Positions 3,024 to 16,035 of a stretch of 64,000 nucleotides of DNA are shown one piece after another (position 1 is the first letter of the stretch; each line of letters begins with the position of its first letter). This stretch comes from Bifidobacterium sp. ESL0682 (GTDB lineage: Bacteria > Actinomycetota > Actinomycetes > Actinomycetales > Bifidobacteriaceae): the NCBI RefSeq assembly GCF_029392815.1, contig NZ_CP113942.1, positions 868,001 through 932,000 of the forward strand. The letters run 5' to 3'. The position numbers and the translations under genes are program-made. Below the pieces are notes generated by a model that saw only the letters and a program-made list of their open reading frames with translations, was not told the origin of the DNA and searched no databases.

Positions 3024-3836
3024 ATGCATCTTCTTTTACCGCCGTCCGAAGGCAAGGCCTCACCGACCGAAGGCCCGACGTTTGACCTTGATCGTCTGTC
3101 ATTTTCGGAACTCAATGACGCCAGAAAATTGGTTTTGTCTGCATTGATCGATGTGTCGAACCGAGAAGACGCGGCGCGAATATTGAAAGTCGGAGCCAAA
3201 GGCGCTCATGAAATCGTTGCTCAGCGTGACATTCTTTCCGCTCCCTGCGCCTCGGCGCATGAGGTGTATACAGGTGTGCTATACGAAGCGGCGCAATTGC
3301 GTCACGACGATGATGTGTTGATCTTCTCGGGTCTCTTCGGTGTTACGCAAGGGTCGGATTTGATACCGTCGTATCGTCTTTCGATGAACGTCTCGCTTCC
3401 CGGCATCGGCCCGTTGAAAGCCTTCTGGCGCAAGCAGCTCGCGGGCTGGACTCCGGACAATGGTTTTGCCGACGGTTCGGAAATGCCCGCTCGGACAACG
3501 AATGGTAATGCAATTACTGATGCGACAATGCAAGAATCGTCGATATCTGGCTTCGTGCGTAATGATGATGTCACTGTCGATTTACGTTCCGAACTCTATC
3601 GAGTGACCAAGCCAGATCCGTCAAGCGAAAATAGTCAGTGGTGGAGCGTCCGCATCGCCGATTCCCGGAACAAGACAATCTCACACATGGCCAAGTACTA
3701 CCGAGGCCTGTTAACGAGAGCCTTGCTCGACTCTCCAACGCAACCCGTAGTCGAAGTTGCTCGCAACCTTGGTACAGTAAGCACAAAGATAGAGAACGGT
3801 ATCCAGCATCTGACGTTGGTTCCATTTGGCATGTAA
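3024..3836 (+). CDS. yaaA: YaaA/UPF0246 family peroxide-stress protein
   Basis: A 270-residue protein. MHLLLPPSEGKASP at the N-terminus is the family hallmark, followed by LIFSGLFGVTQGSDLIPSYRL and the FW motif (LKAFWRKQL). The C-terminal part has the conserved KYYRGLL block. In E. coli YaaA lowers free iron and Fenton damage during hydrogen peroxide stress, which fits its position divergent from catalase. An in-frame start 23 codons upstream is rejected because family conservation begins at 3024. About 40 poorly conserved hydrophilic residues are inserted around 150-195. A decayed copy of codons from 121 onward lies at 5770-5815. Confidence 0.88.
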   Translation: MHLLLPPSEGKASPTEGPTFDLDRLSFSELNDARKLVLSALIDVSNREDAARILKVGAKGAHEIVAQRDILSAPCASAHEVYTGVLYEAAQLRHDDDVLIFSGLFGVTQGSDLIPSYRLSMNVSLPGIGPLKAFWRKQLAGWTPDNGFADGSEMPARTTNGNAITDATMQESSISGFVRNDDVTVDLRSELYRVTKPDPSSENSQWWSVRIADSRNKTISHMAKYYRGLLTRALLDSPTQPVVEVARNLGTVSTKIENGIQHLTLVPFGM

Positions 3837-3937
3837 AATGCTTTTCTGCCCGACGCTGGATTTGCCCGGTATTATGCTTGGATTGAGAGATTTGCTATCT
3901 GACGATAGGCAAGAGGGCAAAAGAGATCGGTGGGTGT

Positions 3938-5707
3938 ATGTTTGGCAACGACAACGACGGTTCGTCGGATCAGATAGATTTTTCGGATGCCGCTTCCGAC
4001 AACTTCACTTCCTCGGACTCGCAGGTATTCGTCAATGACGAGGACTCATGGTCGGCTGCAACCGATGATGGTGCCGAGGGTGCCGAACAGCTTTCTTTTG
4101 ACCAGGGTGGTGCTGGCAAAACAAAATCGAAAAGCAAACATGGCGTGGCCCGTGTTTTCGGTGTTCTTCTGGTGGTTGTCGTAGTGATCGTTTTTGCATT
4201 CGGCTACATAGCCAAGAAGAACCCGTTCGTGGCTTTGAATTACTTGGCGATGACCGACAAATCCTATAAGGACAAGTACCAGCATGATTCGTCTAATCTC
4301 AGCCAGTTGGACAAAAGTGTCGAAGATATCCAGGATGACCATGTGAAAATCACAGGCACCATATCGAGCTTGACCCTTAACAATCACGTCAACGATGGCG
4401 ATCTTAGCAAACTCAAATCGATTGTCGACAAAACCGACAAGGACAACGCGACTTTCGCGGCTTTGCCATATATGGCCGTCCCTGAGGCGAAACCTCAGCT
4501 TGACCGCTATGCCAAGGCCACGGACGCTGAAAAGGGCGTGGTCAATGAGTATCTGAACAACGCGAAAACTATCTCGTCGGTCTACGAGGCCTGTGATATT
4601 TGGGACTATGTATCCGACCAATCGGATATCGACGATTACAACGCCAAAATGAAAACGTGCAGAAGCCGGATGCAGCCGCTGTCGGCTTCCACGGATCCGG
4701 CGATGAAAACGTTTGTTGCATCTATGAACACCGTGTTGGATACCAGCGAGCAGGCCGTCAAACAGATTGCGGCCATCAGCGGCGACACAATATTGGACAG
4801 GGCGGCCACAAAACAGATAGAAAAGCTCAACAAGGATGTTGATACCTCTTCGAAAGTGATGGATTATGTCGATAAATATGGTGACGACCTCTGCAAAGAG
4901 TGCGACAAGCCTCACCTCGAGTGGGCTTTCGACCGTTCCTATCAGACGGCGAGGGCGGCAAAGGATGCGAAGGATGAGGCCGACGGCATAGTGAAGATGT
5001 TCTTTGACGGGTATGGGAAAACTCTCAAAGGTGAGAACAGACAGAAAACCGGCACTGCTCTGGACAATGTCGCCAAGGCATGGAATTTCATGATTGAGAT
5101 TGCCAGCAATTGCAATCATAGCGGTTTTGGTAATCTGAAGAGTGAGGATATCGACGACATCAACAATGCCATCGCCGCGGCCGACCAAGCCAACCAGCGG
5201 CTGGCCGACCAGCTTGCTGCCGATAACGACAAAGACAACAAATGGTTTGCCGATTATCTGACTGCCTACAACAAAGACAAGACGCAAACCCAGCAATATA
5301 TCAAGACCCTGCTTGCTGTCTCCGACGCCGATTCCCTGTGCGTCAAAATTCCTATGCCCGACAATTCGGATCCGACCTATTCGGCGTATACCAATGGTGT
5401 CGCTGTGTGCCAAGCCGCGTTGAAACCGCTGGGTGAAAACGGCGACAACCGCATGCAGAAGATGGTTACCAGATTGAACGATAATTTTGATGGCAATCTA
5501 CGTGTCATACGCAAAATGAAGGCCCTGGGATCTCCTGATGAGGCGAGCTCGGGGAAGCACAAGAAGGAATATCATAATCTGAACAATAAGCTGGTCTACG
5601 ATCAGGAAGGCAAGCGCGAGGGGATATTCAATGACTACAAAAGGGAGTTCGACGATCTGCGCGAGCATTCCGGTGTCACCGAGGCGCTTTGGATTCGCAG
5701 GCAATGA
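3938..5707 (+). CDS. P1: single-pass membrane protein of a local four-paralog family
   Basis: Unrecognised 589-residue protein. Residues 1-70 are acidic and probably disordered (DQIDFS near the start, then DSQVF and DEDSWS), residues 71-92 are one strong transmembrane helix (VLLVVVVVIVFAFGYIA), and the remaining 490 or so residues are helical, Lys/Asp-rich and predicted outside the cell. The ectodomain holds two copies of a module with C-x21-C and C-x22-C, each followed by a PL...M...V..N stretch. It matches P4 over nearly its whole length and P2 and P3 in part. It follows yaaA by about 100 bases with only a weak ribosome site. A sensor, adhesin or envelope-binding role is speculation. Confidence 0.8.
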   Translation: MFGNDNDGSSDQIDFSDAASDNFTSSDSQVFVNDEDSWSAATDDGAEGAEQLSFDQGGAGKTKSKSKHGVARVFGVLLVVVVVIVFAFGYIAKKNPFVALNYLAMTDKSYKDKYQHDSSNLSQLDKSVEDIQDDHVKITGTISSLTLNNHVNDGDLSKLKSIVDKTDKDNATFAALPYMAVPEAKPQLDRYAKATDAEKGVVNEYLNNAKTISSVYEACDIWDYVSDQSDIDDYNAKMKTCRSRMQPLSASTDPAMKTFVASMNTVLDTSEQAVKQIAAISGDTILDRAATKQIEKLNKDVDTSSKVMDYVDKYGDDLCKECDKPHLEWAFDRSYQTARAAKDAKDEADGIVKMFFDGYGKTLKGENRQKTGTALDNVAKAWNFMIEIASNCNHSGFGNLKSEDIDDINNAIAAADQANQRLADQLAADNDKDNKWFADYLTAYNKDKTQTQQYIKTLLAVSDADSLCVKIPMPDNSDPTYSAYTNGVAVCQAALKPLGENGDNRMQKMVTRLNDNFDGNLRVIRKMKALGSPDEASSGKHKKEYHNLNNKLVYDQEGKREGIFNDYKREFDDLREHSGVTEALWIRRQ

Positions 5708-5719
5708 CTCCCAGGATGA

Positions 5720-5815
5720 CATGTAGGAGAGTCCCTCCAAAGTCTTGGCGATGACTAGCATTCAAACCCCGATGAATGTCCCGTTTCCCGGCATTGACCC
5801 GTTGAAAACCTGTTT
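5720..5815 (+). pseudogene. duplication scar: decayed aroA 5' end fused to a yaaA internal fragment
   Basis: Bases 5720-5768 resemble the sequence around the aroA start (7908-7955): TGTAGGAGAGTCCCTC against TGTAGGGGAGTTCCTC, then MTSIQT against MTSVEA in translation, about three quarters identical. Directly after, 5770-5815 resembles yaaA from 3382: MNVPFPGIDPLKT against MNVSLPGIGPLKA, about 85% identical over the first 40 bases. Both pieces are in one frame. The order aroA start followed by yaaA interior is what the junction of a tandem duplication spanning yaaA to aroA would leave. Confidence 0.65.
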
Positions 5816-5920
5816 GGACGGTACGAGTTATGATGGTTTTCACCATGTTAGAATATTTCGGTTGCCGCTTGTGAGGTTTGTGGCACATGAGTTATTCAGA
5901 GTTAAAGGGAGAGAATTTAT

Positions 5921-7273
5921 ATGGTTGACGGCGACAATATGAATGATGATGCATCGCAGTATCAAAACGGACCAGATCAGCCGGCTTCTGAAACGGGTTT
6001 GGAGCAGAACGGTCAACCGGACGTTACTGCAAATTCTGTGACGGATTCGACGCCGAAATCTTATGAGCAATCAGCTCAGTCAGGACGGCCGGTTCAGGCG
6101 AATCCGCTGAACCAGTCAGCTCAGTCTGTTCAGCCGAGCCAGCAGTGGCAGCCGGCTCAGCCGGAACAGGCTGGCAATTTTGCCCAACCTGGCATGCAAG
6201 CATATCCTGGCCAACAAGAGCCGATGACTCAGCAGCGCTTCGATAACCAATATGCACCGATGCAAGATCAGCCGTCTGCTGGGCAGAATCCGACTGCTCC
6301 GATGAGTGGAGCCCCATCTCCGGTGAACAGCTCTTTCCCATATCCTCCTCAGGCGTCGCAGAACCCGGAACAAGGCTATCAATATCCACCTGCCATGGGT
6401 CCCAACGGAGGTATGGCCATGGCCGAGGGCGTGCCAGTCAAGAAGAAGAGCAGCAAGGCTGTCGTCGCAGTGGTTACCGTCGTCATCGTTATCGTGGTGG
6501 TCGTCGCGGTCGTTCTTGGTCTCGATATCGCCGGAGTCATCGGAGGGCCGAAAGAGAAGGACTATAAGGCTGGGCAGGATGATATCGCGATCATGACTCA
6601 TTCCCTGACTTCGATGACCACTGATTTTGTCTCTGCGTCCTTAGGCGTTGGCAGGGATGGCGTAACCGATCAGAAGACCTCTCAGTTCAAGACGGACAAG
6701 GAAAAGTATGAGCAGGCCAATGCTGATTTCAAGAATCTCAAGGTGATGAAGGATTCGAACGTCAAGGCAGCATACGATGCCTACATGCCGAAGGCTCGCG
6801 GGTTCGATACCTATATGGACGGTCTTTCCACGGGAATGCAGAAAATTGCATCTCTCAAGGACTCCTGCACCAACGAGAACGATGGCGGAACCGTTGGCAA
6901 TGATTTCTATCACCAGCAGGATGCGTTCTTCTCTCAATGCTCGGCCAAGATTCAGTCTGTCGGCAAGCTTTCGAATAAGCCGATTGCTGATTTCCTGCAG
7001 AGTATGCAAAATTATCTGAACACAAAGAACGGTATCCTCAAGCAGATGGAGGCCATGGGAGACCCGAATGCGATGACTTCGCAGGCTCAGGTTGATCAAC
7101 TCAATGCTTTGGTTGACAAGTTCAACGCCGTTCCGTCGCCGGAAGAGAACGCCACGTCGCTTCAAGAGTCGGTGACCAAGGACATCTCCAAAACCGATCC
7201 TACAAAAAGTCTGAATAATCTAAAGACCGTAGTGGACAACGGGGCTCGTGCCAAGAGAGGGTCGTTGCTGTAA
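5921..7273 (+). CDS. P2: Gln/Pro-rich single-pass membrane protein of the four-paralog family
   Basis: Unrecognised 450-residue protein. Residues 1-170 are low-complexity, rich in Gln, Pro, Ser and Ala (SAQSVQPSQQWQPAQPEQ), then KKKSSK and a transmembrane helix at about 180-203. The ectodomain of about 245 residues carries one copy of the family module: NADFKNLKVMKDSNVKAAYD, then C-x23-C (DSC...SQC), then QMEAMGDP. GGGAGAG stands 8 bases before the ATG at 5921. The different cytoplasmic tail compared with P1, P3 and P4 suggests domain exchange. The Lys cluster before the helix supports N-in topology. Confidence 0.8.
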   Translation: MVDGDNMNDDASQYQNGPDQPASETGLEQNGQPDVTANSVTDSTPKSYEQSAQSGRPVQANPLNQSAQSVQPSQQWQPAQPEQAGNFAQPGMQAYPGQQEPMTQQRFDNQYAPMQDQPSAGQNPTAPMSGAPSPVNSSFPYPPQASQNPEQGYQYPPAMGPNGGMAMAEGVPVKKKSSKAVVAVVTVVIVIVVVVAVVLGLDIAGVIGGPKEKDYKAGQDDIAIMTHSLTSMTTDFVSASLGVGRDGVTDQKTSQFKTDKEKYEQANADFKNLKVMKDSNVKAAYDAYMPKARGFDTYMDGLSTGMQKIASLKDSCTNENDGGTVGNDFYHQQDAFFSQCSAKIQSVGKLSNKPIADFLQSMQNYLNTKNGILKQMEAMGDPNAMTSQAQVDQLNALVDKFNAVPSPEENATSLQESVTKDISKTDPTKSLNNLKTVVDNGARAKRGSLL

Positions 7274-7316
7274 GCCACCCCTTCCGATTATTGCGTGAAT
7301 ACTACTCCCACTGAAT

Positions 7317-7361
7317 ATTGTTGAGGTCAATGCCAAGAGTTACGACGTTGACCTCAACAAT
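7317..7361. repeat. 14-bp perfect inverted repeat between P2 and cdd
   Basis: Arms ATTGTTGAGGTCAA (7317-7330) and TTGACCTCAACAAT (7348-7361) separated by 17 bases. No T tract follows on either strand, so it is a poor classical terminator. It could end the P2 transcript, act as an operator for cdd, or mark a small element. Confidence 0.6.
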
Positions 7362-7483
7362 GTTGGATATTCGCTCATGTCGTTATTCCGGCTGATAATT
7401 GAACGTAAATTCTGGTGTTGTACGGTTACCATCAACGTTGACAGCCGTTTTGCAACAGATCGGATGCAATCAAAGGAGTGGAA

Positions 7484-7904
<421 letters not shown>

Positions 7905-7923
7905 GCGTGTAGGGGAGTTCCTC

Positions 7924-7936
7924 TAAAATCACTAGC
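7924..7936 (+). promoter_or_regulatory. candidate -10 box giving a leaderless aroA transcript
   Basis: TAAAAT at 7924-7929 is followed by CACTAGC and then the ATG at 7937, the same 7-base spacing as at yaaA. No Shine-Dalgarno precedes the ATG. A related sequence recurs in the scar at 5720-5768. Confidence 0.45.
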
Positions 7937-9526
7937 ATGACAAGCGTTGAAGCCGTAGACGGCATTGGTGATGTGCAAACGAATAAATCATCTGAATCTG
8001 TTCGTTCCGATGAGAGTCAACTGAGTGGAAATCAATCAAATAGGGATACTGATATGTCTTCTTCTCGAAGCACTTCCTCTGATGTTCCTGATCCATGGCC
8101 GGCGCCTCTGGCCATGCAACCGTTGAATGCGACGGTTGTGGTTCCGGGGAGCAAATCACTGTCCAACCGCTATCTGATTCTGGCGGCGTTGGGGAATGGT
8201 CCTGTCACGATTGCGGGTATGCTGCGCTCACGCGACACCGAGTTGATGGCGGACGCTTTGCGAACGCTTGGAGTTGGTGTTGAATTCGATGGAGAGGAAG
8301 ACCGTGTTACGGTCACTCCGCCGGCAAATAGCCGTTTCAAGGGCAATGTCACCGTTTTCTGTGGACTTGCCGGTACGGTGATGCGTTTCGTCCCTGGCCT
8401 GGCTTTGTTTGCGGACGGTCCCGTCCGCTTTGACGGCGACGAACAGGCTTACGCTCGGCCGATGCATCCGTTGCTTGATGGGCTTGAACAGTTGGGTGCC
8501 CACATCAAATATGAGGGCGAGCCCGGCTTTTTGCCATTTACCATTACGCCGCCGAGAGTGCTGGAATCCCAGGGGCCACAACAAAATGCTGGAAATTCAA
8601 GCCTTGTAAATAATTCCGCTGATTCTTCGACTTCGCATCTCGCAAAGGTTGAAATCGATTCGTCTTCGTCTTCACAGTTTATTTCAAGCTTGCTGCTGAT
8701 TGGCTCACGACTGCCGAATGGTTTGGATTTGAAACACACAGGCAGCAAACTTCCCAGCATGCCCCACATTCGGATGACGATGGCCGATGTAAGTGGTGCA
8801 GGCGGAGACGTTGCGATGCCTGAAATCGGCCATTGGCAGGTAACTCATCGTTCCTTGCAGTTGCCGGACGGAGTGGTCGTGGAGCCTGACTTGTCGAACG
8901 CTGCTCCGTTCCTAGGTGCGGCAATGATCGCCGGCGGAACGGTCAGTGTGCCGAACTGGCCGACTTCCACCACTCAGCCCGGTGGTCTGCTTCCTGATAT
9001 CCTCCAAAAGATGGGTGCTACGGTTACATTGGACGGACGTGCTTTCGATGAGGTTATGGCTGACACACGCGGTCAGCAAAATCGGAGTTCGATACCCAAG
9101 AACGGAACGTTGATGGTTACTATGAACGGGCCGATTCATGGGCTAGGCCATGGCTTTGACATGTCGGCGGCAGGGGAGATAGCTCCGAGCATCGCCGCAT
9201 TGGCGACGTTGGCTGACAGTCCCAGCGAGCTAGTGGGCATTGGCCATCTTCGTGGGCACGAGACGAACCGCCTGGCAGCTCTCGTCACTGAAATCACCCG
9301 CGTCGGAGCTTCAGCCATGGAATTGCCGGACGGGCTGGCCATTATTCCAGTGCCGCATAATCAATTGTACGGTGAAACCATGGAAACCTATGCCGACCAC
9401 CGCATGGCGACGTTCGCCGCGATGATTGGCCTGGCTGTCCCAGATACCCGCATCCGTAACATTGCCACCACCCGTAAGACCATCCCTGATTTCCCAAGTA
9501 TGTGGCGCAAAATGCTTGAAAATTAG
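7937..9526 (+). CDS. aroA: 3-phosphoshikimate 1-carboxyvinyltransferase (EPSP synthase)
   Basis: The sixth shikimate step: joins phosphoenolpyruvate to shikimate-3-phosphate. Signatures are the N-terminal VVPGSKSLSNRYLILAALG, GLAGTVMRFV, the central SSSSSQFISSLLLIG, LRGHETNRL and the C-terminal TYADHRMATFAA. The protein is 529 residues, longer than usual. The excess is a Ser/Asp-rich N-terminal tail of about 55 residues and a Ser/Asn-rich insertion around 215-235. An internal Met at codon 40 is an alternative start. Other shikimate genes (aroC, aroKB, aroQ) lie 40 kb away in this window. Confidence 0.93.
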   Translation: MTSVEAVDGIGDVQTNKSSESVRSDESQLSGNQSNRDTDMSSSRSTSSDVPDPWPAPLAMQPLNATVVVPGSKSLSNRYLILAALGNGPVTIAGMLRSRDTELMADALRTLGVGVEFDGEEDRVTVTPPANSRFKGNVTVFCGLAGTVMRFVPGLALFADGPVRFDGDEQAYARPMHPLLDGLEQLGAHIKYEGEPGFLPFTITPPRVLESQGPQQNAGNSSLVNNSADSSTSHLAKVEIDSSSSSQFISSLLLIGSRLPNGLDLKHTGSKLPSMPHIRMTMADVSGAGGDVAMPEIGHWQVTHRSLQLPDGVVVEPDLSNAAPFLGAAMIAGGTVSVPNWPTSTTQPGGLLPDILQKMGATVTLDGRAFDEVMADTRGQQNRSSIPKNGTLMVTMNGPIHGLGHGFDMSAAGEIAPSIAALATLADSPSELVGIGHLRGHETNRLAALVTEITRVGASAMELPDGLAIIPVPHNQLYGETMETYADHRMATFAAMIGLAVPDTRIRNIATTRKTIPDFPSMWRKMLEN

Positions 9527-9552
9527 TGGCGATGCCACCAGATAGATAGGGA

Positions 9553-9594
9553 AAGGCCGGAACCGAATATTCCAATCGGTGCCGGCCTTCTTTT
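9553..9594 (+). terminator. aroA terminator, near-copy of the P4/ackA terminator
   Basis: Arms AAGGCCGGAACCGA (9553-9566) and TCGGTGCCGGCCTT (9576-9589) with one mismatch, then CTTTT. The same hairpin with a perfect stem is at 12818-12855. It forms the left part of a duplicated segment of about 150 bp. Confidence 0.85.
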
Positions 9595-9636
9595 CGCGTT
9601 TCTCTAGATTTCAGAAGCTGGAGAAACACGGCGGGT

Positions 9637-9701
9637 TTACTTTTCGAAGACGTTGCCGCAGGAATCCTTGCCTTCGGTAGCAATCTTGTCGAGGTTGTCG
9701 C
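9637..9701 (-). pseudogene. ackA 3'-end fragment (duplicate)
   Basis: On the minus strand this reads DKIATEGKDSCGNVFEK followed by TAA, against DKIATEGKDSYGNVFEK-stop at the true end of ackA (12902). The similarity continues through the spacer into the terminator at 9553-9594, so about 150 bp upstream of and including the ackA end is present twice, 3.27 kb apart, flanking P3 and P4. Only about 20 codons remain and no start exists. Confidence 0.82.
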
Positions 9702-9801
9702 CTTGCAATACCATTAATTATAGGGATATGTTTTCGGAAGGGTTTCATCGTGGACTTTTCGCAAAACAAAGAGGATAAAGTCGCGTGTAACCGGAGAAAG
9801 A

Positions 9802-10866
9802 ATGTTTAACAAAAACGATAAAGGTCAGGATGACCAAATAGATTTCTCCGGCGACATGTCATCCACGTCGTTGTCGTCGGATCCTAAGGTTTTCGAGGAC
9901 GTTGATGACTCTTGGTCCGACGTCGTCGATGACGACGGCACGCAACGTTTGCGCAAACGAGAGGAGAGAAGGCGGCGGTCGGCTTATCGTAAAGCGGCCG
10001 GAGACAACGGCCACAGCGGGGGTGCACACGTGCTGAAGGTCGTTCTTCGTATCGCGCTGATCGTCATCATTCTCGCCGTAGTCGTGGTTGGCGTGCTTGT
10101 TGCTGTCGGCAAAATCAACGAGGCAAGGCATCCGATGCCAATATGTCAGGGCAAGGTCCAGTGCGACGCGGAATACAAACGTCAGGACCTGAATCGCGCC
10201 ACATACGACATGGACACTAAATTGCGTGACCTGATTGATGATATGACCACTGCAGATAGGCAAAGCGTGAAGCAAAGCGACGTGGATGCCGTGGCCAAGA
10301 GCATCACCAAGGTCGAAAAGTTGGGTGGGGAGTTCGAAAAGCTGCCGGCGATGGACAACGCCGGTGTGAAAAAGGCTTTTACGCAATATAAAGCCCGCTA
10401 TGAGCGCAAGATTGCCTATGCGCGTGACATCATGACGGTGGCTCCCGCCGCTTCCAAGGCCAATCGTATCTGCGGAAAAACGCCGCTGTACGTACCCATG
10501 GATCCGACATGGATGTCTCAGCAGAGCAATTATCTGACGACCTGCAAGGCTGCTGTAGACGCGATTCCAGACGTGAAAAACACCGACGTGGCGAGTTATA
10601 AGGCGTCGTGGAATGCTTATGCCACCAAGACCGGTGAGACCTATGCTGCCATCCAGGAGCTCGGGCCGAGTGACCAATTCTCCTCCAACCAGCAGGAAAG
10701 TTACGACAAGTTGCAGCGCACGCTGTCTCAGTCCGAAGAAAATGAACGCGACGTGACCAACAAACCTCTCCAGACATTGACGAAGGGACTGGACGATGCT
10801 GATGAGAAGGATGGCAACGATTCGGATCTGTCCACAGCCATCTGGGACATGGTCTCGAAGCATTAG
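9802..10866 (+). CDS. P3: shorter single-pass membrane protein of the four-paralog family
   Basis: Unrecognised 354-residue protein. The acidic N-terminus shares the P1 pattern (MF, DQIDFS, SSD, VF, DDSWS), then comes a basic stretch (RKREERRRRSAYRK), a transmembrane helix at about 80-102 (LRIALIVIILAVVVVGVLVAV) and an ectodomain of about 250 residues. It carries one Cys-pair module: FEKLPAMDNAGVKKAF, then C-x23-C (RIC...TTC). CGGAGAA precedes the ATG by a good distance. P4 follows 57 bases later on the same strand, so the two are probably co-transcribed. Function unknown. Confidence 0.8.
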   Translation: MFNKNDKGQDDQIDFSGDMSSTSLSSDPKVFEDVDDSWSDVVDDDGTQRLRKREERRRRSAYRKAAGDNGHSGGAHVLKVVLRIALIVIILAVVVVGVLVAVGKINEARHPMPICQGKVQCDAEYKRQDLNRATYDMDTKLRDLIDDMTTADRQSVKQSDVDAVAKSITKVEKLGGEFEKLPAMDNAGVKKAFTQYKARYERKIAYARDIMTVAPAASKANRICGKTPLYVPMDPTWMSQQSNYLTTCKAAVDAIPDVKNTDVASYKASWNAYATKTGETYAAIQELGPSDQFSSNQQESYDKLQRTLSQSEENERDVTNKPLQTLTKGLDDADEKDGNDSDLSTAIWDMVSKH

Positions 10867-10923
10867 ACAGGATATAAGTTTGGGAAACGGCAGTAAAAGA
10901 ATGCCATTGGGTGGGAGTTGATT

Positions 10924-12683
10924 ATGGGGCGTGATACAGGGCAACAGTCATTTGATCAAGGCAATAATCAGAGTTTCTCTGGTGTGGACGATGATATCGC
11001 GACATTCAGCTCGATGTCTGCAGACGGTGCTCCAGTAACTGATCAGGTTGCGTGGGCACCGTCGGATGGGTATCGTCCTCGGTCTGGAAAATCAAAGACA
11101 GTAGTGCTTATCGTCTGTATGGTGGTCATAGTAGCGCTGATTGTGGTTGCAGATCCGCTCATCAAGACAATCACGTCGTCATCGCTGAGTTCCAGCCAAT
11201 CACAAGATGCTGCTAACCGTCATACGCATCACGAGCAGCCCACACCCGCAGACAAAGTGAGCAAGGGGATTGACGACATTCATGACGATCACCGCAATCT
11301 CATATACAGTCTGGAGGCTCTGGTCACCGGTTCTCATGCTGCGGACAAGGATATCGCCAAACTCACCTCGCTTATCGACAAAACCGACAAGGACAATACC
11401 ACCTTTGCGAGTCTGCCGATTATGGACAACGCCGAAGCAAAACGGCAATTTGACCGCTATACGAAGGCTACGCAGGCTGACAAGGCAATTCTGAATGATG
11501 TTGTCGGGAAGGCCAAGGCTCTGTCTGCGGTGAACAAGGCCTGCGGAGGGCCTTGGAACTACATGTTCGGTTACGAATCCGAGGAGCACAGCTACGACAA
11601 GCGATCGGCCTCATGCGCCACAGCATTGCAACCGCTGTCCGGCTCCGATGACGAAGCCATGAAAACATTCGTTGCCTCGGTTACCAGCGCATTGGAAGAA
11701 AGCGGCAAGGCCGCCAAACAGCTTGCTGTGCTCCATGCGGGTGCGTCCAGTGATAGATCCGTTGAGCAGCAGGAAGATCAGCTTAACAAAAGTATCGACA
11801 TTTCCACCAAAGTGCGGGATTACAGCTACCGTTACAGCTGGGCTCTGCAGAAAAGACGTGATGCGCTGCATCTCGATTGGGCCTTCGATCGAGCCTATGA
11901 TGTCGCTCAGTCGCAGAAAAGTGCCGAGGATTGGGAAAAAGTGTGCTTGAAGGCTTTCCCAAGGGTCCGGGTAAAGCGTTCAAGGGGGACACGGCAAAGA
12001 AGATCACTGATGCCATGGCCGAGGTGGCCAAACGGTGGAGTCTCATGGATTCGACCGTCTATGACCGCAGTTTCAAAGGTATGGGCAATCTGGAACAGGC
12101 CGATATCGATGACATCAATGACGCTATAAGTGCTGCGGACCAGGCCAATCAGGCGCTCGCCGACCAATTGAGCACGAACGGGAATGCGGATTATCGTCCA
12201 TTCAAGGATTTCATGACCGCATACGACAAAGAAAAAGCGACGATTGGGGCGTATATTCCGACGATGCTTCCGGTTTCCCAGGCCAAATCGGTGTGTGTCA
12301 CGTTCCCCCAGCTTGATGAGTCGGATCCGACCTACGCCACTTACATCGGCGCTCTCGATTCATGCCGTGCGGTGTTGAAGCCGATGGACAATCCTCAAGA
12401 CCAGCGGTTGCATCGGCTGGTCACCAAGATGACGGCCAATCTGGACAAGAATGGCTCGGTCATCGACAGCATGAAGGCATTTGGCTCTTACCATGACGCC
12501 GAGGCTGGCAAACAAAGCAAAGCCTACGAGCAGTTGGGCCATCAACTGACTTACGATCAGGTCGGCGAACGTGAGCGGATATTCGATGAATACACCCATG
12601 CTTTCGCCAATAGCCGTACCCAATCCGGGGCATCGAATGCGCTTTACCAATTGCAGGGTGGAGGCTATGGGATACGGGAATGA
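10924..12683 (+). CDS. P4: single-pass membrane protein, P1-like, frame disrupted once
   Basis: Unrecognised protein of about 586 residues once repaired, nearly the length of P1. GTGGGAG precedes the ATG at 10924. A hydrophilic N-terminus is followed by a transmembrane helix at about 58-78 and a long helical ectodomain. IDKTDKDNTTFASLPIMDN and DINDAISAADQANQALADQL almost repeat P1 segments. Two Cys-pair modules are present, C-x23-C and C-x22-C. The frame breaks at the run of five A at 11936-11940; one more A turns EDWEKV into EDWEKSVLEGFPKGPGKAF, continuous with the P1-like C-terminal half. It ends upstream of the terminator shared with ackA. Confidence 0.8.
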
Positions 12684-12817
12684 TCGATGGCAGCGCGTTT
12701 ACGGTTGCGACTTGGGCTGGTCGAACTGATTCAATTTCGTGATATGCGCGTGACATGTGACATTGTCGATGTTAAGGTCGGTGCGATTGAGCCATAGCAT
12801 CTACAAATAGATATGAA

Positions 12818-12855
12818 AAGGCCGGAACCGAATATTTTCAATCGGTTCCGGCCTT
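12818..12855. terminator. bidirectional terminator between P4 and ackA
   Basis: Perfect 14-bp stem, AAGGCCGGAACCGA and TCGGTTCCGGCCTT, with a 10-base AT-rich loop, flanked by AAAA on the left and TTCTCATTATT on the right. It can serve P4 (plus) and ackA (minus). Confidence 0.88.
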
Positions 12856-12901
12856 CTCATTATTCTCGCTGGATCTCAGAATCTAGCAGAACAAAGCAGA
12901 C

Positions 12902-14131
12902 TTACTTTTCAAAGACGTTGCCGTAGGAATCCTTGCCTTCGGTAGCGATCTTGTCGGCCTTGTGGGCGATTGCCAGCTCCTCGTTGGTGGGGATGACGGC
13001 GATGATTACGGAGCTGTCGGGCGTGGAGATGATGCGCGGTTCCTTGGAACGGGTCGCATTCTTCTCCTTGTCGAGCTTGACGCCGAAAGGCTCAAGCTTC
13101 TCGCACACGCGGGCACGCACAGCGTCATCGTTCTCACCGACACCGGCGGTGAAGGTGATGACATCCACGCCGCCCATCTGAGCGGTGTAGTTGCCGATGT
13201 AGCCTACGATGCGGTGGATGTAGACTTCCATTGCGGTGATGGCGTCTTCGTTGCCTTCCTTGATGAGGCGATCGACTTCACGCATGTCGCCGAAACCGGT
13301 CATGCCGATCATGCCGGACTGCTTGTTGAAGAGCGTGTCGAGCTGATCCACGTCCATGTGGGCGTTGCGAATGAGGTGGAAGACCACTGCCGGATCGATG
13401 TCGCCGGTACGGCTGCCCATCATCAGACCTTCAAGCGGGGTCAGGCCCATGGAGGTGTCAATCGGCTTACCGGAAATCTGTGCGGAAGCGGAAGCGCCGT
13501 TGCCGATGTGCAGTACGATCTGCTTCAGGCCTTCGGCAGGCTTGCCGATGATGCCGGGGACGACGGAGCCGATGTACTCGTGGCTGGTGCCGTGGGCGCC
13601 ATAGCGACGAATCTTGTACTTCTCGGCGACTTCCTTGTTGAGAGCATAGGTGCTGGCTTCCTTCGGCAGTTGGAAGAAGAAGGAGGAATCGAAGACGAAG
13701 ATCTGCGGCACGTCGGGCAGAAGCTGTTCCATGACCTCAGCGCCGGTGGCTTCCGGACCGTTGTGCAGCGGGGCGAGCACGGCGAGGTCCTTGACCTGCT
13801 GAATCGTCTTTTCATTGACGAGCGCCGGTTCCGGGAAAACGGAGCCACCCTGCACCACGCGGTGGCCAACGGCAACGATGCCGGATTCGTGCAGATCAGG
13901 GCCATATTCCTTGAAGAAACCGAGGACGCGCTTCAGGCCATCGGCATGAGTCTTGATCGGCTCTTCGAGCTCGTGCTTCTCACCCTGATATTCGTGTTTG
14001 TAGTGGCCATCGATGGGTTCGCCGATCTTCTCCACGAGGCCGCTCGCCAGAGCATCCCCGCTTCCGAGATCCACCAGCTGATATTTGATTGAGCTGGAAC
14101 CGGAATTAATGACAAGGACGGTTTTCGCCAT
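12902..14131 (-). CDS. ackA: acetate kinase
   Basis: Makes ATP and acetate from acetyl phosphate and ADP, the energy-yielding end of the phosphoketolase pathway. 409 residues, normal length. Signatures are the N-terminal VLVINSGSSSIKYQL, VGHRVVQGG, VLHIGNGAS, DTSMGLTPLEGLMMGSR and TFTAGVGEN. Two ATGs compete: the one at 14140 abuts the GGAGG site, while the one at 14131 (MAKTVLVIN) is 8 bases behind it, so 14131 is chosen. It lies downstream of pta on the same strand, with a strong hairpin between them. A fragment of its 3' end is duplicated at 9637-9701. Confidence 0.97.
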   Translation of the reverse strand: MAKTVLVINSGSSSIKYQLVDLGSGDALASGLVEKIGEPIDGHYKHEYQGEKHELEEPIKTHADGLKRVLGFFKEYGPDLHESGIVAVGHRVVQGGSVFPEPALVNEKTIQQVKDLAVLAPLHNGPEATGAEVMEQLLPDVPQIFVFDSSFFFQLPKEASTYALNKEVAEKYKIRRYGAHGTSHEYIGSVVPGIIGKPAEGLKQIVLHIGNGASASAQISGKPIDTSMGLTPLEGLMMGSRTGDIDPAVVFHLIRNAHMDVDQLDTLFNKQSGMIGMTGFGDMREVDRLIKEGNEDAITAMEVYIHRIVGYIGNYTAQMGGVDVITFTAGVGENDDAVRARVCEKLEPFGVKLDKEKNATRSKEPRIISTPDSSVIIAVIPTNEELAIAHKADKIATEGKDSYGNVFEK

Positions 14132-14294
14132 TGTTTGCATCCTCCATATAAATAATTTGATCCGTGAGTGTTACCACGGCTACCAAGCTTCTAGCTTACT
14201 CACGAGATGTTACAAGAGTAAGGAAAATTAAACTTTTGAAAGCTTTTATCGAATTTCAATTTTTCTTTGTCTCAAATAGAATTTTCAGACTGAT

Positions 14295-14353: not shown

Positions 14354-16035
14354 TCACTGCTGAGCTTCCACGGCGGTGAGGGCTACCGTGTTGATGATGT
14401 CTTCTACCAGGGCGCCGCGCGAAAGGTCATTGACGGGCTTGTTGAGGCCTTGGAGCACCGGGCCGATGGCGATGGCACCGGAAGTGCGTTGCACGGCCTT
14501 GTAAGCGATGTTGCCGGCAGCCAGGCTCGGGAAGACGAAGACGTTGACATGGCCAGCCACATCGTTGCCCTTGGCCTTGGTGGCAGCCACGGTGGGCGAC
14601 CAGGCGGCATCGAACTGAATGGAGCCGACGGCTGGCAGATCCGGGGCTTTCTCATGGACAAGCTTTGTGGCTTCTTCGACCAGATCGACGTCCGGGCCCT
14701 TGCCGCTGCCCAGCGTGGAGTAGCAGAGCATGCCCACCTTCGGATCCACGCCGAAGGCTCGGGCGGTGTCGGCGGACTGGATGGCGATGTCGGCCAGCTG
14801 TTCGGCGTTCGGGTTCAAGTTGATGGCGCAATCGGCGAAGACGGCCACATGGTCCTTAAAGCACATCAGGAACGCGCCGGAGACCAGCGAGGCGCCGGGC
14901 TTGGTCTTGATGACCTGCAGTGCGGGGCGCACAGTGTTGGCGGTGGAGTTGATGGAGCCGGAGACAAGGCCGTCGGCCAAGCCCTGCACGACCAGCATGG
15001 TGCCGAAGTAGCTCGGATCGGTGAGCTGCTTGCGGGCCTGTTGCTCGGTCATGCCCTTCTTGGCGCGCAGCTCGCAGAGCTTGGCGACCATGGGCTTCAG
15101 GACCTCCTCATCGTCCATCGGCTGATAAGTGGCCTTGGAAAGTGAGTTGAGACCGAGTTCCTTGCCGCGCTCGAGGATGGCACTCTTGTCGCCGACGATG
15201 ATGAGCTTGACGATGTCACGCTGCAGCAGGTAATCAGCAGCCTTGATGATGCGATCTTCCGAGCCTTCTGGCAGAACGATAGTCTTCTGGTTGGCCTTCG
15301 CCTTGGCCAGAAGCTCGTTCTGGAAAGCATGCGGAGTGGTAGGTGCGTCGAATGATGTGCGGGCAGCGGCGACTACTTCGTCGGCCGGAGCATTGTCAGC
15401 GAAAGCCTTGGCGGCCTTATCGGCGGCATCGGGATCGGTGTCGGAGGGGAAGTCAACGGCCGGAATGGTCCAGACCGGAACGGGGAGTCTTTCAGTGCTT
15501 CCTTGGCATCGGCGGCCTTTTCGTCGGTGCAACCGGTGACGAAGACCCCGGCTACCTTTCCGCCGGCTTGTTCCACTTCGGCTGTGCAGGTCTCAACGGT
15601 GGCCTTCACCTGTTCGCCGTTGCGTGGAATGGTGCAGATGGCGAGGAACGTCTTGGCTTTGAGGTCAGATGCGATTTCGGCATTGAAAGTGAACGCTTCA
15701 GGGTCGAAGATGGAGGAACCGTCACTGCCGACGATGACCATCGAGTCGGGATCGGTACGCTCAAGTTCGGCGCTGTAGGTTGCGACGATGTCACCTCGTG
15801 CCGAGCTCTTGTCTTTGCGTGCGCACTTGGGGCACACGCCGCGAACCTGCTCCACGCTTTGCCCGGCGTTGGCTGCCTTGAGCAGTTCGGCGGAGAAGGT
15901 CTCCTTCTTGCAGGCTACAGGTCGGAAAACCGCCGTCTTGCCTTGCGCCGCCAGCGCCTTCACTACGCCATAAGCCACCACATTGCGGCCGTTCTTGCCC
16001 TCTGGGCTGGCGATATAAATGACTTCTTGTGCCAC
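14354..16035 (-). CDS. pta: phosphate acetyltransferase, frame disrupted once
   Basis: Interconverts acetyl-CoA and acetyl phosphate. The start is a GTG at 16035 (read as MAQEVIYIASPEGKNG) behind AAAGGAG. Residues 1-190 are the P-loop-like/DRTGG N-terminal region of long Pta proteins. The C-terminal catalytic domain shows QKTIVLPEGSEDRIIKAA, SGSINSTANTVRPALQVI and AIGPVLQGLNKPVNDLSRG. The frame breaks at the run of four C/G at 15482-15485; one more C gives KDSPVPVWTIPAVDFPSD. Restored length is about 560 residues, as in other bifidobacteria. Both halves are fully conserved, so a sequencing error is the best explanation. Confidence 0.95.

Follow-up and report, generated by a model that had tools for sequence, protein, structure and literature searches.

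A worn aroA-yaaA fusion between two P genes of Bifidobacterium sp. ESL0682, most likely the seam of an old duplication

The window analyzed here is a 64-kb stretch (G000:C1:868001-932000) of a 2.09 Mb genome. It carries the order yaaA-P1-[aroA'|'yaaA]-P2-cda-aroA, in which a short remnant of two core genes lies between two P genes. On the + strand, intact yaaA (3024-3836; Pfam PF03883, peroxide stress protein YaaA) is followed by P1 (3938-5707), for which one predicted-looking membrane segment was judged by eye, and then by the remnant, the P2 upstream region (5812-5920), P2 (5921-7273), the cytidine deaminase gene cda (7484-7904), and aroA with its leader (7908-9526; leader 7908-7936, gene 7937-9526). 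Beyond aroA lie a P3-P4 block (9692-12760, +) and, on the - strand, ackA (12902-14140). P1, P2, P3, and the two P4 pieces match no Pfam or NCBIfam family at its cut-off, and one piece of cda matches TIGR01354 with E=5e-13, under that family's cut-off. The cda gene has an ATG, and its frame is broken in the assembly; catalase (1217-2766), P4 (10918-12683), and pta (14354-16035) are, like cda, split into overlapping frames. Since the assembly is a single contig of 94% completeness and the split genes are conserved, these breaks look like assembly indel errors, not gene loss. The aroA leader (TGTAGGGGAGTTCC, with a -10-like TAAAAT a few bases before the ATG) is near-invariant in 12 relatives. Our own reading is that TAAAAT is a -10-like box and that the arrangement suggests leaderless transcription, with an upstream element under conservation.

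The remnant consists of two halves in direct orientation, both on the + strand and sited between yaaA and aroA. The left half (5722-5768) aligns to the aroA leader and start (7908-7954) with a local score of 20, against a maximum of 14 in dinucleotide-preserving shuffles (0/1000 reach the real score); ungapped, it agrees with the window's own leader at 33/47 positions. The right half (5770-5811) aligns without gaps to yaaA 3382-3423 at 36/42 positions (E=3e-8 in the 64-kb window), and again none of 1000 dinucleotide-preserving shuffles matches the real score. Pairwise alignments of both halves place the joint at 5768-5770 (+), where the two have 0-1 nt in common and one base (5769) belongs to neither. 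The left half is a worn copy of the aroA promoter plus the gene's first six codons, with its ATG at 5751, and is fused in frame to a worn copy of yaaA codons 120/121 to about 134. The frame is unbroken through the joint (MTSIQTPMNVPFPGIDPLKT...) and stays open for 63 codons from 5751, past the P2 start. In the scar, CAAAGT stands where the leader has its -10-like TAAAAT, and amino-acid changes have turned the yaaA motif MNVSLPGIGPLKA into MNVPFPGIDPLKT; both fit the expectation for decay. No function is inferred for the scar itself. P1, P2, and cda are each single-copy in the first 16 kb of the window, with no two full copies of a block; what remains is a fossil junction rather than a live duplication. 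A sequence-only reading of this DNA had proposed such a junction of the aroA start with the yaaA interior, in direct orientation and one continuous frame, over 5720-5815. Junction, orientation, and frame all hold, and the region aligns to yaaA and aroA far better than shuffled sequence does; the homology is real but runs from 5722 to 5811, slightly inside those limits.

The scar is unique among the sequences compared. A 47-nt consensus of the aroA leader, built from 12 relatives with the window genome excluded, scores 42/47 at aroA and 35/47 at the scar, and 25/47 at the next best of 127,906 positions on both strands of the 64 kb. It finds one site per locus in 13 relatives (36-46/47; second best <=27/47) and none at the loci of the remoter G012 and G014 (best 25/47). 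Likewise, each of the 12 relatives that have yaaA shows a single site for the window's yaaA 42-mer (34-39/42; second best <=27/42), and the G091 locus shows none. Across the window and these 15 loci (13 relatives plus G012 and G014), two leader sites (42 and 35 of 47) and two yaaA sites (42 and 36 of 42) occur in the window alone. The supposition that relatives would be found without the scar is thereby borne out at 13 loci, which hold single copies, one leader site each, and at most one yaaA site. Self-comparison of 16 sequences, at settings that miss the aroA half of the scar (a half covered by the leader-consensus scans), found repeated yaaA or aroA-ackA pieces at E<1e-6 in the window alone; repeats in G088 and G091 were weak (E 7e-5 to 6e-4), those of G091 being between coding parts of ackA and pta, and the large repeats of G087 fall in other genes. 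A genus-wide search with 5700-5920 gave matches in 5 of 112 genomes, the window genome included. Those in G086, G088, and G025 fall within their own yaaA, and that in G091 is the P2 upstream region; this search is insensitive to old scars, as it listed the yaaA of just three relatives.

These controls leave very little probability for a chance resemblance, or for a conserved promoter or small gene that has nothing to do with yaaA and aroA. The 63-codon open frame overlapping the P2 start would suit a small gene, but the shuffle result for each half, the distance between the scar and the next best leader match in the window, the lack of a second site in 13 relatives' loci, and the amino-acid changes in the yaaA motif all speak against it. 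The scar is a worn fusion of the aroA start to the middle of yaaA, and most likely the seam of an old duplication.

Gene orders were compared over 20 regions, including 13 close relatives (L007-L019), with G025 as the outgroup. In the genus as a whole, yaaA is matched in 20 of 112 genomes (two of them weakly) and aroA in 111 of 112. G085 and G089 have single copies in the order yaaA-P2-cda-P1-aroA, with no scar and with one leader site and one yaaA site each, and G087 has P0-P2-P1-aroA after other genes. The order is thus P2, P1, aroA in all three relatives with both P1 and P2, and P1 stands ahead of P2 in the window alone. G093 has P0-P2-aroA, where P0 is a remote relative of P1 (24.5% amino-acid identity). 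In 8 of the 13 relatives (G085, G089, G087, G090, G086, G084, G092, and G083, where it is broken) the gene immediately upstream of aroA is of the P1/P4 type, and the yaaA-aroA interval of G025, G082, and G088 contains no P gene. In G091 the order is P2-cda-aroA, joined at nearly the same point as in the window, with no P1 and with just a 5' remnant of yaaA. The yaaA remnant of the scar stands on the P2 side, and the aroA leader remnant lies 14 nt after P1; in the eight relatives with a P1/P4-type gene next to aroA the gap from P gene to leader is 50-167 nt.

A core tree of 14 genomes (17,612 columns, each filled in at least 10 of 14; G012 and G014 omitted) unites the 12 other ingroup genomes to the exclusion of the window genome (SH-aLRT 99, bootstrap 98), and G091 is not the sister of the window genome in it. 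Given that position, gene order at the shared node has to be reconstructed. Single-locus trees (yaaA; aroA; ackA plus catalase) are poorly resolved. Two side observations concern the same interval. The yaaA remnant of G091 lies before P2 at L019 5665-5727 and that genome has no yaaA match elsewhere, from which it appears that yaaA may be dispensable in at least one relative. G087 carries between yaaA and aroA a tandem pair of large repeat-rich genes of 1087 and 1078 aa with 84% DNA identity (L009 4725-8203 and 8427-11873).

The ancestry of the P genes bears on what the event did. In a tree of 21 P proteins, from which the window P4 and the P1 and P4 pieces of G083 were omitted because their frames are broken, the window P1 groups with P1 of G085 and G089 (100/99), where it stands directly upstream of aroA. 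The window P2, which has orthologues in G091, G085, G089, G087, and G093, groups with that of G091 (100/99) and then with those of G085 and G089 (96/95). Long branches meet at the base of the P2 group and weaken the deep branching, leaving the orthologue groups used here unaffected. Because P1 and P2 fall in separate clades, with their own orthologues in G085 and G089, both are older than the event; being old and separate paralogues, they had their order swapped by it and were not created as a pair. The tree rules out P1 and P2 as sister duplicates, and with it the proposal in the sequence-only reading that they are products of the duplication: its main idea was right, its account of P1 and P2 wrong.

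The spacer before the window P1 is similar to the one between cda and P1 in G085 (score 24) and in G089 (23.5), with 0/500 shuffles reaching either score, and matches the P1 upstream region of G084 weakly (16.5, 0/500); a better match than any of these is the upstream region of P3 in G083 (39). P1 itself also starts with ~50 P3-like residues, followed by a P1-type body, so that it is a possible fusion (window 3837-4100). Of five relatives tested, the P2 upstream region is homologous to that of G091 alone, with no match in G085, G089, G087, and G093; a resemblance to G085 and G089 seen by eye was ruled out by shuffling (489 and 765 of 1000 reach the score). Visual inspection of the 32 bases that separate cda from the start of aroA showed no P1 remnant. 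Several further candidates were rejected in the same way: the yaaA-P1 spacer against scar-P2 (327/1000 shuffles reach the score) and against aroA-P3 (996/1000), scar-P2 against aroA-P3 (286/1000), and the P2-cda spacer against the scar (526/1000). At a supposed common yaaA-to-P2 joint in G091 just eight bases agree (GAAAACCT), too few to count.

Very probably, then, the scar is the seam of some duplication, formed either in situ or by insertion of a relative's DNA with homology on one side only. We lean, by a modest amount, towards a tandem duplication in place followed by reciprocal loss, by which P1 would have moved ahead of P2. In an ancestral yaaA-P2-cda-P1-aroA, the stretch between yaaA codon 120/121 and roughly codon 6 of aroA would have been doubled, its ends joined with almost no common sequence, setting aroA' directly before 'yaaA. 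The first copy would then have lost P2 and cda, and the second P1 and most of the partial yaaA, after which both core-gene pieces at the seam would have decayed; the net result would be P1 ahead of P2. We infer the in-situ origin of the second copy, and also the losses, the doubled genes now being gone. This reading is favored by the reality of both halves, by the paired leader and yaaA sites found in the window alone, and by the joining of the downstream (aroA) end to the upstream (yaaA) end in the same orientation. It is also favored by the window P1 being nearest to P1 of G085 and G089, whose haplotype has P2 and cda as well, by the similarity of the spacer before P1 to their cda-P1 spacers, by the P1/P4-type gene next to aroA in 8 of 13 relatives, by the yaaA piece being nearer to the window's own yaaA than to any of 12 orthologues, and by an order of P1 and P2 that differs from that of the relatives as reciprocal loss predicts. 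The leader remnant so close behind P1 is as expected if P1 kept its old neighbor.

It is improbable that repair simply used the neighboring aroA and yaaA as templates for two pieces of ~45 bases, without any large duplication. Both pieces are indeed short, and neither source is more than 2.5 kb from the scar, but such a templated insertion leaves unexplained why they correspond to the sequence following P1 and to the gene preceding P2 in G085 and G089, and it leaves the swapped order of P1 and P2 unexplained as well.

A stronger competitor, though one to which we give clearly less weight than to duplication in place, is the addition of a relative's DNA by homology on one side and end joining on the other. 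A yaaA-P1-aroA recipient would have taken up G091-like 'yaaA-P2-cda-aroA, recombining by homology in aroA, with the other end joined without homology to the recipient's aroA start; two alternative P cassettes would thus be stacked in one step, with no reciprocal loss needed. The affinities of P2 and cda count for this route and against duplication in place. P2 is 71.5% identical at the amino-acid level to that of G091 versus 54-55% to those of G085 and G089 (in DNA, three stretches of P2 are 74, 84, and 80% identical to G091), and cda is 86% identical in DNA to G091 versus 80% to G085 and G089, though G091 and the window genome do not pair in the core tree. (These DNA identities, like those for P3, P4, and the aroA quarters below, come from a table that omits G025.) The gene order of G091, with P2, cda, and aroA, no P1, and a decayed yaaA, indicates that a P1-free haplotype may have existed, and the minimal overlap at the joint agrees with an end joined without homology. 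Also against duplication in place are the P2 upstream region, unlike that of G085, G089, G087, and G093, the P1 upstream region, nearer to that of P3 in G083 and followed by a P3-like start of P1, and the position of P0 in G093, where a remote P1 relative precedes P2 as P1 does in the window. On the other hand, a G085-like P1 without P2 is present in no sampled genome, the aroA that follows the scar is not of the G091 type (leader 63%, quarters 73-81%), and the yaaA piece of the scar is nearest to the window's own yaaA (36/42 vs 30-35/42 for 12 orthologues). The aroA piece is no closer to its own leader than to those of relatives (33/47 vs 31-36/47); this counts against duplication in place, and as evidence for choosing between the two routes it helps neither. 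The tandem duplication proposed in the sequence-only reading therefore stands as regards the junction and the unduplicated relatives, with recombination with another strain's DNA as an alternative route.

A second scar lies on the other side of aroA. At 9539-9698 (+), the spacer between aroA and ackA with the terminator and the 3' end of ackA occurs a second time, 80% identical (E=8e-35) to 12804-12963 (+), the copy in its usual place beside ackA, and P3-P4 lies between the two. The P3-P4 block has 85.6% DNA identity to G092 (L015, oriented, 4493-7571), where its counterpart stands upstream of aroA; in the window P3-P4 is downstream of aroA. P3 is 88% and P4 87% identical to G092, compared with 74-81% for the four aroA quarters, which suggests transfer between lineages. 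On this evidence P3-P4 look acquired from a G092-like relative, and the second scar looks to be the mark of a further addition here, of DNA from another lineage; the aroA copy that would have accompanied it would since have been lost. A single event for both scars can be dismissed by reasoning, since one duplication leaves one new junction and two are present. The apparent entry of foreign cassettes beside the second scar also favors insertion of a relative's DNA at the first. We raise, tentatively, the possibility that the yaaA-aroA-ackA interval is a stacking site, where alternative membrane-protein cassettes from different lineages would be added in tandem by one-side-homologous recombination, each addition leaving a core-gene stub as a scar (aroA'|'yaaA, then ackA'|P3-P4). 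Binary capsulated transformants of pneumococcus reportedly carry two alternative capsule cassettes in one chromosome after DNA uptake. The window would likewise hold two alternative surface cassettes; unlike those transformants, it has no donor strain identified for P1 or P2, and the stacking is read from scars only.

Tandem duplications in bacteria are described as frequent but unstable, and as being made by transformation, in PMC3784515, and tandem duplication after gene transfer in bacteria is a subject of PMC11111574. In the Streptococcus pneumoniae merodiploids of PMC3784515, the far end of a block is joined to its near end in direct orientation, as at our scar, and DNA uptake can drive the duplications; there the junctions are laboratory-made and situated in repeats, whereas the scar here has 0-1 nt in common and is decayed. 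The tandem duplication-random loss of animal mitochondria (PMC5745709) offers the closer likeness in outcome: a tandem block is doubled, copies are lost, the order changes, and decayed pieces persist. Here, by contrast, the setting is a bacterial chromosome, the residue is ~90 bases of two core-gene fragments, and the loss is one we infer and not one caught in progress. Literature matches on tandem duplication, random loss, gene order, and bacteria nearly all concerned mitochondrial genomes among those listed. Among the titles listed for further searches none dealt with a bacterial fossil seam of this kind, a weak negative, as the listings covered a minority of the matches and subscription papers were mostly uncovered. 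Searches for Bifidobacterium yaaA with aroA and for Bifidobacterium asteroides with tandem duplication returned nothing; PMC3447821 treats catalase in B. asteroides, and aroA and yaaA are absent from its main text.

The scar is a well-supported fossil seam of a known type of rearrangement. Because tandem duplications are unstable, local changes of gene order are mostly deduced without traces; here the seam, together with single-copy relatives, lets one such change be read at the level of bases. Another seam about 4 kb off suggests two rounds of growth at this locus, each by a similar route. These observations also offer a search rule, to look for short core-gene stubs between paralogues, and if the interval is indeed a stacking site, the number of such stubs could serve as a record of how surface genes grew there.
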